Part shown: positions 39,302 through 44,397 of the stretch, in pieces
How positions within the stretch are numbered: the first letter of the stretch is position 1
Layout: every line of letters begins with the position of its first letter
Source of the DNA: Planctomycetota bacterium
Lineage (GTDB): Bacteria > Planctomycetota > Phycisphaerae > Phycisphaerales > SM1A02
Direction: 5' to 3'
Assembly (NCBI GenBank): GCA_014381555.1
Contig: JACNLO010000042.1
Location: 1-45,984 of the forward strand
DNA: 45,984 nucleotides
Position numbers and translations under genes: made by a program
Notes under the pieces: model-generated
What the model was told of the DNA's origin: nothing
The model's database searches: none
The model's input: the letters and a program-made list of their open reading frames with translations, nothing else

Positions 39302-39381
39302 AAGGGTCTGACCCCCGACCTAACCCCCGACATGACCCCCGACATGACCCCCGACATGACCCCCGACATGACCCTTGAATT
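39302..39381. repeat. Tandem array of 12-bp units (GACCCCCGACAT), 6 copies
   Basis: From 39310 there are six 12-bp units (GACCCCCGACCT, AACCCCCGACAT, three identical GACCCCCGACAT, GACCCTTGAATT), preceded by AAAGGGTCT. The minus strand has five GGGGG runs separated by 7 bases. That matches the usual G-quadruplex pattern and lies within the 3' end of the fabF transcript. The array overlaps the last base pair of the fabF stop region. It is related to the csrA-mraZ array by its period and CTGACCC core. Confidence 0.9.
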
Positions 39382-40636
39382 AACCGTTGAAGGCGGCAAT
39401 CGCCAGCGAAACGTTGTGACCGCCGAAGCCAAATGAATTATTCAATGCTACTTTGATTGTTCGTTCCTGAGCAGTGTTTGCAACAAAATTCAAATCAAAA
39501 CCTTCATCAGGATTATCAAGGTTAATTGTTGGAGGCATAACACCATCGTAAATTGCCTTCACCACTGCAATAGACTCGATACCACCTGCTGCACCAAGCA
39601 TATGACCTGTGCAAGATTTCGTTGAACTCATCGCAAGCGAACTCGCATGATTGCCAAACAAGCTCTTCACTGCAGACACTTCTGCAATATCCCCAAGTGG
39701 CGTAGACGTTCCATGAGCGTTGATGTAATCCACTTGGTCAATTTCAAGTTTAGCATGCCGCAAAGCCGTTTTCATAGCTGCATGCGCACCAGTTCCAACA
39801 GCATCAGGAGCTGCAATATGCCCAGCATCGCCAGTAATTCCAAACCCAATGATTTCAGCAAGAATTGTCGCCCCACGAGCTTTCGCGTGTTCCAACTCCT
39901 CCACAGCTAAAACTGCCGCACCCTCAGCGAGCACAAAACCATCTCGGTCTCGATCAAATGGGCGAGACGCAAGCGTGGGCTCATCATTCCGCGTTGAGAG
40001 AGCTTTCATCGCCGAGAACGAGCTCACACACACCGGAGACACCGCCCCTTCAGCACCTCCAGCAAGAATAAAGTCAGCTTGGTCAGATGCAATAAACATA
40101 AACGCTTCAGCAAGAGCGTGCCCGCCTGTAGCACACGCTGTTGCAGGAGCAGAATTGACTCCACGCAGGTTAAATTTTATCGAAACATTGCCAGCAGTCG
40201 CATTGACCATCAATTTCGGGACAGTAAATGGACTCAGCCGGCGAGGGCCTTTTTCTTTTAGGACTCCAGCATAGAATTCAATCGTTTGAATTCCACCAAC
40301 ACCTGATCCAATAACCACACCATTTCGATAGGGATCACCCTGGTTCCAGTCAAGCCCACAATTCTCCATGGCTTCAATCGCTGCCCACAATCCTAATTGT
40401 GAGAATCGATCCATCTTCTTGATTTCACTTCGATCAAGCTTCGTTGTTGGATCCCAATCGCGAACTTCGCCCGCAATTGTCGCAGACCAACGGTCATCTT
40501 GCTCAAAAGCGGTAATTGGGCCAATACCAGATCGACCCTCGACCATGCCCGACCACGTTGAGGTGACATCGTGACCGAGATTCGATATTGCACCGAGACC
40601 AGTTATGACCACTCGACGTTGATTATGGACTGACAT
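39380..40636 (-). CDS. fabF: Beta-ketoacyl-ACP synthase II
   Basis: FabF condenses malonyl-ACP with growing acyl-ACP in fatty-acid elongation. The 418-aa protein has the catalytic Cys in ATACATGGHALAEAF near residue 166, the two active-site His in NAHGTSTPLGD and KSCTGHMLGAAGGIES, and the C-terminal NNSFGFGGHNVSL. It begins with RRVVITGLGAISNLG. The length is standard. It is the last gene of the fab operon, 14 bp behind acpP. A G-rich 12-bp array begins right after its stop. Confidence 0.96.
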   Translation of the reverse strand: MSVHNQRRVVITGLGAISNLGHDVTSTWSGMVEGRSGIGPITAFEQDDRWSATIAGEVRDWDPTTKLDRSEIKKMDRFSQLGLWAAIEAMENCGLDWNQGDPYRNGVVIGSGVGGIQTIEFYAGVLKEKGPRRLSPFTVPKLMVNATAGNVSIKFNLRGVNSAPATACATGGHALAEAFMFIASDQADFILAGGAEGAVSPVCVSSFSAMKALSTRNDEPTLASRPFDRDRDGFVLAEGAAVLAVEELEHAKARGATILAEIIGFGITGDAGHIAAPDAVGTGAHAAMKTALRHAKLEIDQVDYINAHGTSTPLGDIAEVSAVKSLFGNHASSLAMSSTKSCTGHMLGAAGGIESIAVVKAIYDGVMPPTINLDNPDEGFDLNFVANTAQERTIKVALNNSFGFGGHNVSLAIAAFNG

Positions 40637-40650
40637 GAAAAAACTTTCTG

Positions 40651-40899
40651 TTATTCGGCTTCTGTTGCAGCAACTATAAAGTCGACTGCATTGCCAACTG
40701 TTTGAATTTGCTCTGCCTTATCATCAGGGATGGAGGTTGAGAATGCGTCCTCTAATTCCATAACTAATTCAACGGTATCAAGACTATCGGCGTTTAAATC
40801 ATTCGCAAAACTTGATGCAATAGTGACTTCGTTTTTATCAACTCCAAGTTGAGTTGAAACAATATCAATCACTTTTAGTTCAATTTCAGCTTTCGTCAT
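40651..40899 (-). CDS. acpP: Acyl carrier protein
   Basis: This acidic 82-aa carrier has a 4'-phosphopantetheine arm that holds acyl chains in fatty-acid synthesis. The prosthetic-group Ser lies in [16 protein letters not shown] near residue 39. The flanking helices ([11 protein letters not shown] and [10 protein letters not shown]) and the low pI are typical. AAGGAG lies nine bases before the ATG. The 98-bp gap to fabG carries a perfect -10, so acpP and fabF may have their own promoter, as expected for an abundant protein. Confidence 0.97.
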
Positions 40900-40997: not shown

Positions 40998-41750
40998 TTA
41001 ACAGGTTAGCCCGCCATCAACGACAAGCACTTGGCCAGTCACATACCCCGCATCCTCAGACGCAAGGTATGACACTGCAGAGGCGATTTCAGAAGATTGC
41101 CCATATCTGCGAAGTGGCACCATTTTTTCGACACCCTTTCGAATCTCTTCGCCAAGCGACGCTGTCATATCTGTTTCGATATAGCCAGGTGCAATTGCAT
41201 TTGCAGTAATTCCTTTGGAACCAAACTCTTTAGCAATCGTTTTGGTCAGTCCAACAAGCCCAGCCTTAGCCGAAGCATAATTCGCCTGCCCGGCATTTCC
41301 ACTAATCCCAGTAACCGATGTGATATTAATAATTCTTCCCCATCGGCCTTTCATCATCGGTCTTGCTACTGCCTTGCAACCAGCAAAGACTGAACGAAGA
41401 TTCACATTCATCACGACATCAAAATCTTCCAAAGTCATACGAAGCATCAGTCCATCTTTTGTCATTCCAGCGTTATTCACTAGAACATCAATACGACCAT
41501 ATTGCTCTGCGATTTCATCAATCGCTGCCGTATATGCTTCTGCGTCAGACAAATCGCAAATGTGAGAACTCGCTTGCCCACCAGTTACATCTATTTCTTT
41601 TTCTACTTTAACGAGCGCGTCGATATTCCTTGCCACCATTGCAACAATAAATCCATCGCTTGCAAGACGCAAAGCAATCGCTTTACCTATACCTCGATTT
41701 GCCCCAGAAACAATTGCAACTCGGGCTTCTTGTATATTTTCGTTGGAAAT
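40998..41750 (-). CDS. fabG: 3-Oxoacyl-ACP reductase, apparently with an ATT start codon
   Basis: FabG reduces 3-oxoacyl-ACP with NADPH. With the start at 41750 the protein is 250 aa: SNENIQEARVAIVSGANRGIGKA holds the NADPH loop GANRGIG, NNAG follows, and the catalytic triad is in ITSVTGISGNAGQANYASAKAG (Ser, Tyr, Lys). VDGGLTC ends the protein. The first in-frame TTG (41672) lies inside the Rossmann fold and would remove the cofactor motif. Between an in-frame TAA (41754-41756) and the conserved VAIV, the only possible starts are ATT (41748-41750) and ATA. ATT has GGAG six bases upstream, as expected for initiation. A sequencing error is the other explanation. Confidence 0.9.
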   Translation of the reverse strand: MSNENIQEARVAIVSGANRGIGKAIALRLASDGFIVAMVARNIDALVKVEKEIDVTGGQASSHICDLSDAEAYTAAIDEIAEQYGRIDVLVNNAGMTKDGLMLRMTLEDFDVVMNVNLRSVFAGCKAVARPMMKGRWGRIINITSVTGISGNAGQANYASAKAGLVGLTKTIAKEFGSKGITANAIAPGYIETDMTASLGEEIRKGVEKMVPLRRYGQSSEIASAVSYLASEDAGYVTGQVLVVDGGLTC

Positions 41751-41775
41751 AGTTTACTCCGTTCCTGTGTGGGTA
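41751..41775 (-). promoter_or_regulatory. Ribosome-binding site that decides the fabG ATT start
   Basis: On the minus strand GGAAC-GGAG is followed by TAAACT and then ATT. GGAG with a 6-base spacer is a normal Shine-Dalgarno position for the ATT. No ATG, GTG or TTG exists in this 25-bp gap in any frame that could lead into fabG. Confidence 0.6.
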
Positions 41776-42498
41776 TTATTGCCCAAGTGGTCCACCTGGT
41801 CGGCTTGGCGGCGGCCCAGGTCGAGATTCGTCAGTACCAACTGACCCGTCAGTACTTGTTATCTCACCAGCCAAAGAATACGAAGTTTCTTCATCTGGTT
41901 GTAATGCTATTTCTGCCTGCTTGCTTTTTAAATCGAAATAATTTTGAACCAAATTGCCACTTAGTTTTTCTATAAGGTTCGGGGATGTTTCTGCTGCACT
42001 AAAAGTAAAATCAGATCCTTTGTTCTGATAAAACCACATCTGTACCTGATAATCCATACCAATTTCATAAATTGCCATGACGCAGGATGTTCCCTCTGGA
42101 CTTTCGCCAGTCAACAACTCAATGAGAGAAACACTGTCCATATATGATGACATGTTCTCTTTAGACATTGTGTCGAGTTCCATGTGGTCGCTGTAGGACA
42201 ACATGCTTTTAATTGAGTCCAAATCTGATTGAATCATTGCGTTAAAAAAATTAAGGATTGCAATTCGCTCTGATTCTCGTCGAGGAGCTTCATCCTCACT
42301 GAGGAATATTCTGTTATCTATTGATAAATCCGAAACTAGTTGATCGACTGTTTTTGCTTTTGGTCGCTTGGGCGCAGTTGGTTTCTGGGTTACAACTTGC
42401 TTTGGCTTTTCTTCTTCTCCTCCGCATCCAATTCCAAAAACTGAAATTGCAAGGAACATCAAGAGTACTGACCATACGCTTTTATTTTGGTTCATCAT
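41776..42498 (-). CDS. Hypothetical lipoprotein inside the fab operon
   Basis: This 240-aa protein starts with a type II signal peptide (NKSVWSVLLMFLAISVFGIGC). Cys25 lies in a GIGC lipobox, then an EEEKPKQVV linker. A domain at ~55-210 (TVDQLVSDLSID, IAILNFFNAMIQSDLDSIKSML, VMAIYEIGMDYQVQMWFYQN) looks alpha/beta and resembles small ligand- or surface-binding lipoprotein domains. The tail ends RPGPPPSRPGGPLGQ, a Pro/Gly stretch. I do not know the family. It overlaps fabD by 17 bp and is followed by fabG after 25 bp. A lipoprotein is unusual here and may link the envelope to lipid synthesis. Confidence 0.65.
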   Translation of the reverse strand: MMNQNKSVWSVLLMFLAISVFGIGCGGEEEKPKQVVTQKPTAPKRPKAKTVDQLVSDLSIDNRIFLSEDEAPRRESERIAILNFFNAMIQSDLDSIKSMLSYSDHMELDTMSKENMSSYMDSVSLIELLTGESPEGTSCVMAIYEIGMDYQVQMWFYQNKGSDFTFSAAETSPNLIEKLSGNLVQNYFDLKSKQAEIALQPDEETSYSLAGEITSTDGSVGTDESRPGPPPSRPGGPLGQ

Positions 42499-43405
42499 GG
42501 GACTGTACCTTTACATCTCTATTCACTCGTCGCATGAGACCCCGCAGCACACCGCTTGGGGCAAGTTCATGCCAACTGCACCCATCATACTCTTTTGCCA
42601 TTTTGTTGCAAGATTGTGCCCAGCGAACTGAGCCAGTTATTTGGTCGACAAGACGGTCTGCGATGGTTTCTGGGCTATGTAAATCAGCGGTCACATTCGA
42701 CCATACATCGATTTTTGGTGCCAGTAATGTCGCTTCTGCTAGGGCTTCTCGCATTCCCTTTGCAGCAGGAGCCATAAAAGGCGAATGGAACGCACCAGCA
42801 ACAGAAAGTGCTGTTGCACGAACACCCTTTTCCTCTGCAAGCGTTGCAACACGCTCGCACGCAGCCACGGAACCACTAAGCACTGTCTGACCTGGCGCAT
42901 TAAAGTTAGCAGCAACAAGTATCTCGTCACCCTCTTTTGCATCATCGCAAAGAGCAAGTGCAGCATCATCATCGCCCATCACTGCAACCATCGTGCTTTC
43001 TTTTGCTTCTGCGGCTGCTTGCATCAATTGTCCGCGTTTTGCTACAAGTCGCAGTCCATCAGCAAATGAAAAGACTCCTGCAAGATGCAGCGCTGTGTAT
43101 TCACCAAGGGAAAGTCCAGCTGTTGCAACCATATCGCCAACAAGACCTTGTTCACGAAGTCCATGCCATGATGCAACTGAGCATGTGTAAATTGCAGGTT
43201 GGCTTATATTCGTTTTATTGATTTCACCGTTTGGATCGTTGAAACAAATTTCACTCAATGGCAACCCAAGTGAGTTACCAATGACTGCGTCTGCTTCTTC
43301 AAAAATTGCTTTTGCAGCTGGAGAAGCGTCGAACCACGCTTTACCCATGCCAGCTTTTTGTGCACCTTGACCAGGACATAATGCAACGAGTTTCGACATT
43401 GTCAT
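42482..43405 (-). CDS. fabD: Malonyl-CoA:ACP transacylase
   Basis: FabD moves malonyl from CoA to ACP to feed elongation. The 307-aa protein begins MTMSKLVALCPGQGAQKAGMG. The nucleophile Ser is in AGLSLGEYTAL near residue 95; GLSLG instead of GHSLG is also seen in other phyla. The Arg is in the VAKRGQLMQ segment, and the active-site His is in VAGAFHSPFM near residue 205. The start at 43405 overlaps the fabH stop by ATGA; ATG at 43399 is possible. Its stop lies inside the lipoprotein gene by 17 bp. Confidence 0.94.
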   Translation of the reverse strand: MTMSKLVALCPGQGAQKAGMGKAWFDASPAAKAIFEEADAVIGNSLGLPLSEICFNDPNGEINKTNISQPAIYTCSVASWHGLREQGLVGDMVATAGLSLGEYTALHLAGVFSFADGLRLVAKRGQLMQAAAEAKESTMVAVMGDDDAALALCDDAKEGDEILVAANFNAPGQTVLSGSVAACERVATLAEEKGVRATALSVAGAFHSPFMAPAAKGMREALAEATLLAPKIDVWSNVTADLHSPETIADRLVDQITGSVRWAQSCNKMAKEYDGCSWHELAPSGVLRGLMRRVNRDVKVQSHDEPK

Positions 43406-44397
43406 ATTCTCCAAGCGCTGCTTGCCCACGTGAGTCCTCCACCAAAGGCAAGGAGCACGATTACATCGCCGCGTTTAATTTTTCCATCTTGCCAGAGTTG
43501 GTCAAAACAAAGCGCAGCCGCGCCCGCTGAACTGTTTCCAAAGTGGCTAATGTTTTTATACACCTTGTCGTCAGCTAACCCCAGTTTTTTCTGCGCTGAT
43601 TCAATTATGCGCATGTTTGATTGGTGACAGATGAATTGGCTCACATCATCAGGCGTTAAGCCGGTTTCTTCAAGAAGTGTTTCTGCAATTTCTTGGAAGG
43701 TTGTCACTGCAAATTTATATACTTCTTTGCCCTTCATTCTCAGATTGCCGTATGAAGTCGTCGCCGTATCTCCTTGAACTACGTCTTCTTCACAAGAGGG
43801 AATGTATAAAGCCGGCCATGGCTGGCCATCAGCATTCATAGTCTGGTAAAAACAACCAACCTCTGGGTCATCGCATTTTTGTAATATAACTGCTCCCGCT
43901 GCATCGCCAAACAAAATGGAAGTTCCGCGGTCAAGCGGATCAGTCAACTTACTCATTGCATCACAACCAACAACTGCAATCGTATGTTGTGTACCGCTTC
44001 GAATCAAACTATCTGCTAGGTTCATCGCGTATACAAAGCCAGAGCAAGCGGCGACTATGTCAAACGCACCAGCAGGAGCAGCGTTTACTTTTGCTGATAA
44101 CCTGCATGCGTTGGAAGGGCATGTCATTTCAGAAGTCACTGAAGCGCAAATGATTAAGGAAAGATCTGACCCTTTGATTCCCGCATCGTCAAGCGCTTTT
44201 TTTAACGCCCGCGTCTGCAATTCAAACGTGCCTTCGTCTTCATTGCAATAGTGGCGTTCGACGATTCCGGTTCTCTGTTCGATCCATTCCACATCGACAT
44301 CAAATCGTTTTGCCAACTCTTCGTTTCCTAGAATGTTGTCTGGCACTGCGGAACCCGTGCCAACAACACGAACGCCGCAAGGTTCAAAAGTTGTCAT
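43402..44397 (-). CDS. fabH: Beta-ketoacyl-ACP synthase III
   Basis: FabH starts fatty-acid synthesis by condensing acetyl-CoA with malonyl-ACP. The 331-aa protein shows the catalytic Cys in DIVAACSGFVYAM near residue 115, His in FICHQSNMRIIE near 253, and Asn in HFGNSSAGA near 284. IEQRTGIVERHYC, near residue 38, is the family N-terminal mark. It starts at an ATGA overlap with plsX and ends in an ATGA overlap with fabD. Confidence 0.96.
   Translation of the reverse strand: MTTFEPCGVRVVGTGSAVPDNILGNEELAKRFDVDVEWIEQRTGIVERHYCNEDEGTFELQTRALKKALDDAGIKGSDLSLIICASVTSEMTCPSNACRLSAKVNAAPAGAFDIVAACSGFVYAMNLADSLIRSGTQHTIAVVGCDAMSKLTDPLDRGTSILFGDAAGAVILQKCDDPEVGCFYQTMNADGQPWPALYIPSCEEDVVQGDTATTSYGNLRMKGKEVYKFAVTTFQEIAETLLEETGLTPDDVSQFICHQSNMRIIESAQKKLGLADDKVYKNISHFGNSSAGAAALCFDQLWQDGKIKRGDVIVLLAFGGGLTWASSAWRI

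Follow-up and report, generated by a model that had tools for sequence, protein, structure and literature searches.

An AUU start codon of fabG in a planctomycete of the family SM1A02 and its probable control by IF3

Where can translation of fabG begin when its reading frame offers none of the ordinary start codons, and what would such a start mean for the cell? The question is raised by a locus in the window, that is, the whole stretch of 45,984 nucleotides analysed here, which belongs to a genome assembly of 91 contigs totalling 2.0 Mb from a planctomycete of the order Phycisphaerales (family SM1A02). Genes named by sequence recognition follow one another in the window in the order plsX-fabH-fabD-lipoprotein-fabG-acpP-fabF, which locates fabG in a fab gene cluster.

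The start region of fabG in the window

The features on which the argument draws are as follows.

41748..41750, minus strand: ATT, proposed start codon of fabG (no in-frame NTG from TAA to VAIVSG; ATC or ATT in relatives)
41757..41760, minus strand: GGAG, Shine-Dalgarno-like, 6 nt ahead of the ATT
41754..41756, minus strand: TAA in the fabG frame, which bars starts farther up
40998..41750, minus strand: fabG, 3-oxoacyl-ACP reductase, 250 amino acids plus stop from the ATT (Pfam, alignment, dN/dS)
41776..42498, minus strand: upstream gene, 240 amino acids, lipoprotein-like N-terminus (open reading frame, labelled from the look of its N-terminus)
42482..43429, minus strand: fabD, first listed start GTG, ATG further on in the N-terminus (named by sequence recognition)
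40651..40899, minus strand: acpP, acyl carrier protein, ATG start, control (named by sequence recognition)
39380..40636, minus strand: fabF, ATG start, control (named by sequence recognition)

Read on the minus strand, the 5' end of fabG consists of GGAG, TAA, ACT, ATT, TCC AAC GAA AAT ATA CAA GAA GCC CGA, followed by GTT GCA ATT GTT TCT GGG, which encodes the conserved VAIVSG. No ATG, GTG, TTG or CTG occurs in the fabG frame of the window from the TAA to VAIVSG, and the only candidates in this interval are the ATT (codon -10) and an ATA (codon -5), counted from the V. The first ATG, GTG or TTG is a TTG 27 codons into the open frame; it falls within the Pfam short-chain dehydrogenase domain, which starts at residue 11 of the open frame, and an ORF finder using ATG, GTG and TTG starts cuts fabG to 224 amino acids from this internal TTG. 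Openings of at least 27 codons free of ATG, GTG and TTG are found in 6 of the 42 ORFs of the window; among the five of these that were run against Pfam, fabG alone has its domain truncated at the first such codon, and the sixth is fabF, with its ATG.

The protein read from the ATT matches PF13561 (adh_short_C2) and PF00106 (adh_short) and carries GxxxGxG together with the N-S-Y-K residues in a short-chain dehydrogenase domain. Across 19 aligned FabG proteins, G16, G20, G22, N117, S145, Y158 and K162 are invariant, the last four of which are taken here to be the catalytic residues. Between the window and its nearest relative, fabG shows a dN of 0.105 versus a dS of 1.99, and dN amounts to 0.16-0.19 against three further relatives, for which dS is saturated. 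A first-pass annotation, made from the letters of this DNA, had placed the start at the ATT behind GGAG, with the TAA upstream, and had expected a protein of 250 amino acids; the codons, read directly, bear out the former, with strong support from the relatives, and the open reading frame at 40998-41750 agrees with the latter. On sequence grounds, it is near certain that translation of fabG in the window begins at AUU.

The lipoprotein-like gene (41776-42498) sits between fabD and fabG in the window; many loci of the family have an ORF of about 240-290 amino acids ahead of fabG, a putative counterpart of this gene.

Start codons of fabG and its neighbours across the family

A FabG protein search over the family covered 181 genomes and returned 158 matches at E 1e-80 or better, of which 12 were left out; the start region was read in the remaining 146 and in one genome with a weaker match (G020), giving 147 genomes from 43 genera. 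Starts were chosen by a script from codon type and Shine-Dalgarno motif, with the raw result of ATC 84, ATT 8, ATG 42, TTG 7, GTG 5, and ACG 1. In three loci (L227, L256, and L266), the NTG lies 14-16 codons upstream and a Shine-Dalgarno motif directly precedes the ATC; these were therefore reassigned by hand to ATC, and the final counts are ATC 87, ATT 8, ATG 41, TTG 6, GTG 4, and ACG 1. An ATC or ATT start is found in 95 of the 147 genomes and in 31 of the 43 genera (26 with such starts only and 5 mixed), and the other 12 genera are without it. Five loci that carry an NTG plus an ATC (L032, L035, L177, L179, and L209) are provisionally counted as NTG, and L217 offers no good NTG and no ATC or ATT. 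The comparison of close relatives proposed in the first-pass annotation favours the ATT only in part, since 5 of the 11 members of the window's genus start with ATT, whereas three start with ATG, two with TTG and one with GTG; carried across the 147 genomes of the family, the comparison comes out on the side of ATC or ATT at the start place, as the counts above indicate.

A strict count, which is independent of any start choice, finds ATG, GTG, TTG, and CTG absent from the interval separating the last in-frame stop from VAIVTG in 46 of the 147 genomes (21 genera), and all 46 of these frames, the window's among them, hold an ATC or ATT. In 84 genomes, the ATC or ATT occupies codon -4 before VAIVTG (ATC 83, ATT 1), where the entropy of the codon column is 0.09 bit, whereas each of the three preceding codons has 3.3 to 4.6 bits; the codons downstream of the start follow the protein-like pattern GAN, NNN, CGN. 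Isoleucine codons inside the same fabG genes are ATC in 78.7% of cases, and the binomial value for the excess of ATC at the start is 4e-8 when relatedness is ignored; the third base of the start codon is thus more constrained than elsewhere in these genes, given 83 ATC out of 84. The remaining 11 ATC or ATT starts, 7 ATT included, stand at other distances. A Shine-Dalgarno motif of at least 4 nt, located 3-12 nt ahead, precedes 87 of the 92 script-assigned ATC or ATT starts, and the motif amounts to 3 nt only in the other five. Sister genera may exchange the codon at the identical place, for instance ATG GAC AAG CGC in g25 and ATC GAC AAG CGC in g55; the odd start is kept among relatives and lost in some of them. 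Both the position of the start and its conservation are established by these comparisons.

The neighbouring genes serve as controls. A start of ATG, GTG, or TTG lies within 16 codons of the N-terminal motif of fabF in all 115 loci where the gene was found (32 of 147 were not found), and an NTG start is present for fabD in 77 of 77 (70 of 147 not found) and for acpP in 116 of 117 (30 of 147 not found), the single exception resembling a false motif match; by the same approach with a stricter motif, fabG has an NTG start in 69 of 133 loci found. The nearest acpP start is GTG in 89 of the 117 loci of the family where it was found; acyl carrier protein is usually abundant in cells. Outside the family, ordinary bacterial fabG genes share the protein family and the place in the fab cluster, and they begin with NTG in 22 of 22 readable loci from other families of the order (24 fetched) and in 39 of 39 from other orders of the class (40 fetched). 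The class-level search comprised 114 matched genomes, 19 of them from the window's order, and the outside fabG examples comprise at least 80 loci across many phyla, none evidently from the window's family.

A fabG protein tree built quickly from 169 rows (147 from the family and 22 from the outgroup; 4 rows stateless), on which L032, L177, and L179 were scored as ATC/ATT, requires 15 changes of start type, versus a mean of 51.9 and a least value of 45 in 200 shuffles. The outgroup and the root have NTG, and parsimony fits a single early gain with many returns and several gains alike. A single early gain of AUC/AUU followed by repeated returns nevertheless appears likelier than several gains, because AUG-to-AUU switches are very rare: in one survey of closely related genomes, such a switch was reconstructed 1 time among 61,358 ancestral AUG starts (PMC5622118).

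The initiator tRNA, infC and a putative circuit through IF3

The decoding of an AUU or AUC start depends on the initiator tRNA. A tRNA search and ARAGORN found one initiator tRNA in the window genome, with the anticodon CAU, and the tRNAs at the 30 fetched loci (32 matches) included no second one. Its location is given below.

L302:1500-1575 (G000:C65:59388-59461): initiator tRNA with an A-U stem pair

The anticodon stem of this tRNA has an A-U pair (A29:U41) where the first of its three G-C pairs would normally stand, and a pattern search of the window genome for the usual stem with three G-C pairs found none. Only two of the 45 genera in the family have the A-U stem: g1, with 10 of 13 genomes, and g59, with 7 of 9.

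The gene of IF3 itself, infC, was viewed as an open frame at 31 loci, one of which (L037) is cut by a contig end and was excluded. In 24 of the resulting 30 loci from the window's order, the start was placed at ATC (18), ATT (4), or ATA (2), most of these after a Shine-Dalgarno motif; among the six unplaced loci, three show CCC ATC CGA GGA CGA, one has CTG there, one is cut by a contig end, and the last is L036. The infC of the window genome is placed at ATC, an assignment that rests on the relatives, because an in-frame ATG lies five codons upstream. A start of the AUU/AUC type is therefore in use for IF3 itself in this order and is shared by fabG. One further locus, L054 (G014), has an in-frame TAG within the infC coding region, possibly an assembly error or decay.

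These observations can be combined into a mechanism in which decoding by the ordinary initiator, a low output, control by IF3, and a physiological meaning are all conditional steps. The 30S subunit would bind the fabG mRNA through GGAG, and the ordinary fMet-tRNA would pair with the first two bases of the start codon; the third base would be mismatched, because the sole initiator tRNA found has the anticodon CAU. Such a mismatch would make initiation weak, and IF3, by rejecting starts of this kind, would set the rate; weak third-base pairs are excluded by IF3 in vitro (PMC10158994). Since infC in the order starts alike and would be expected, from its AUC, AUU, or AUA start, to be repressed by its own product, fabG would become a second gene on the same circuit: a shortage of free IF3 relative to 30S subunits would raise FabG and an excess of IF3 would lower it, so that the AUU/AUC start would keep the output of FabG low and coupled to the balance of IF3 to 30S. 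Tuning of fabG by IF3, which the first-pass annotation had suggested, would fit because infC in the order likewise starts with ATC, ATT, or ATA. Altogether, the reading of fabG as an AUU-started gene held by IF3, the second on the IF3 circuit beside infC, is judged probable. A broader version, namely, that the IF3-fabG circuit has existed throughout the family since about its origin and sets membrane-lipid synthesis, together with the initiation machinery, according to the proportion of free IF3 to ribosomal subunits, is entertained tentatively and falls somewhat short of an even chance. Normal fabG starts are found in all of 12 of the 43 genera, in part of 5 more, and in 6 of the 11 genomes read from the genus of the window; the benefit of AUU/AUC, if any, is dispensable, because normal starts recur across these genera.

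Rival readings, known systems and further candidates

Several other accounts of the odd start have to be weighed against control by IF3. Translation might begin elsewhere, either at an upstream normal codon followed by a frameshift or read-through, through coupling to the preceding gene, or at the internal TTG; 24 genomes have an NTG only far upstream within the open frame, and the upstream ORF of the window stops 25 nt ahead of the ATT. However, many genomes place an in-frame stop just before the ATC or ATT, 46 of the 147 are devoid of any NTG, as noted, an out-of-frame ATG lies within -6 to +11 of the start in just 3 of 95, and a start at the internal TTG would delete the strongly constrained NADPH-binding N-terminus. 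Coupling from the upstream lipoprotein, which the first-pass annotation had raised, fails as a general rule: among 90 ATC/ATT loci with a machine-picked upstream ORF of at least 100 amino acids, the gap exceeds 100 nt in 58 and is at most 30 nt in 8. It may operate in the window genome, because the gap there is 25 nt, within the distance of about 30 nt taken to allow coupling. As a whole, a start at another place is considered very improbable. Still less credence is given to an assembly error or a decayed gene: many of the genomes are fragmented, but the same start type recurs in 95 genomes of 31 genera, and this recurrence over independent assemblies rules out an assembly error, whereas decay is contradicted by a full-length FabG with low dN versus dS and invariant catalytic residues. 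A special initiator tRNA, with an altered anticodon or the A29:U41 stem, could in principle normalise AUU/AUC starts, and the window genome does have the A-U pair; yet the anticodon is CAU, fabG starts with ATG in all 9 genomes read of g59 (where the A-U stem is present in 7), most ATC genera are without the stem variant, and the genes next to fabG retain NTG starts. With this anticodon and with a distribution of the A-U stem that differs from that of the fabG start, a changed initiator tRNA was rejected as the cause, its chance being negligible.

A closer rival accepts the AUU/AUC start as real and regards it as a fixed brake on the dose of FabG, with IF3 varying too little to regulate. The sequence evidence for it is identical, and the repeated reversion to ATG, TTG, or GTG suits a mild dose effect; against it, infC in the order keeps AUC, AUU, or AUA, and any AUU/AUC start would feel the IF3 circuit. 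Because infC retains such starts, a responsive IF3 circuit is probably present in the order, and the fixed brake is regarded as rather unlikely, albeit well ahead of the other rivals discussed above.

Regulation of fabG by IF3, the preferred reading, may be compared with known systems. To our knowledge, well-studied bacterial genes with starts of the AUU/AUC type are very few. The pcnB gene of E. coli starts with AUU and resembles fabG as a non-infC gene with this start. The infC gene, which begins with AUU in E. coli and with AUC in Streptomyces, is like fabG in its AUU/AUC start, in the Shine-Dalgarno motif ahead, and in being kept in relatives; unlike fabG, it encodes the repressor and is under autocontrol (PMC5472188), whereas control of the metabolic fabG would act in trans. 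Similarly, sigR of Streptomyces has an odd start outside infC that is conserved in its clade, and IF3 represses the odd starts of both infC and sigR; SigR made from its GTC start is lowered by an excess of IF3 and raised by fidelity mutations in infC (PMC5472188). The two genes differ in that sigR uses GTC, encodes a regulator of the oxidative stress response, and has an IF3 repression that was demonstrated experimentally (PMC5472188), while fabG is known from sequence. The fabG gene may join the genes with IF3-sensitive non-canonical starts, among which its role in core metabolism and the breadth of its conservation would be unusual. A literature search of open-access sources, Planctomycetes included, found no pairing of fabG with an odd start codon among the papers listed. 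A core metabolic gene that holds AUC/AUU over 31 genera would make such starts a long-lived regulatory trait; if the proposed reading is true, fabG would be the second IF3 target beside infC and would link translation initiation directly to membrane-lipid supply. At the practical level, gene finders restricted to ATG, GTG, and TTG will truncate or overlook fabG in these genomes, because its start is AUU or AUC, as the shortened call in the window illustrates.

A coding-potential screen for further ATC/ATT starts was applied to 317 kb of an ATC genome (G122; 221 ORFs kept) and to 80 kb plus the fabG locus of the window genome (76 ORFs kept), and the only convincing ATC/ATT start in both was fabG. 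The top-scoring candidate was rejected as the shadow of an 833-amino-acid ORF on the opposite strand, and two weak candidates (L403, and L396 near 18749) have an ATG soon after. The screen detects ORFs with at least 12 codons before the first NTG and is blind to cases such as the infC of the window genome; further odd-start genes may exist, since frames with an earlier NTG are missed and the two weak candidates remain. In genus g44, the codons behind AAGGA are ACG ACC at L215 (G069), ACA ACC at L217 (G080), and ATG ACT at L226 (G066), so that ACG and ACA would represent two further non-canonical fabG starts of a different kind.
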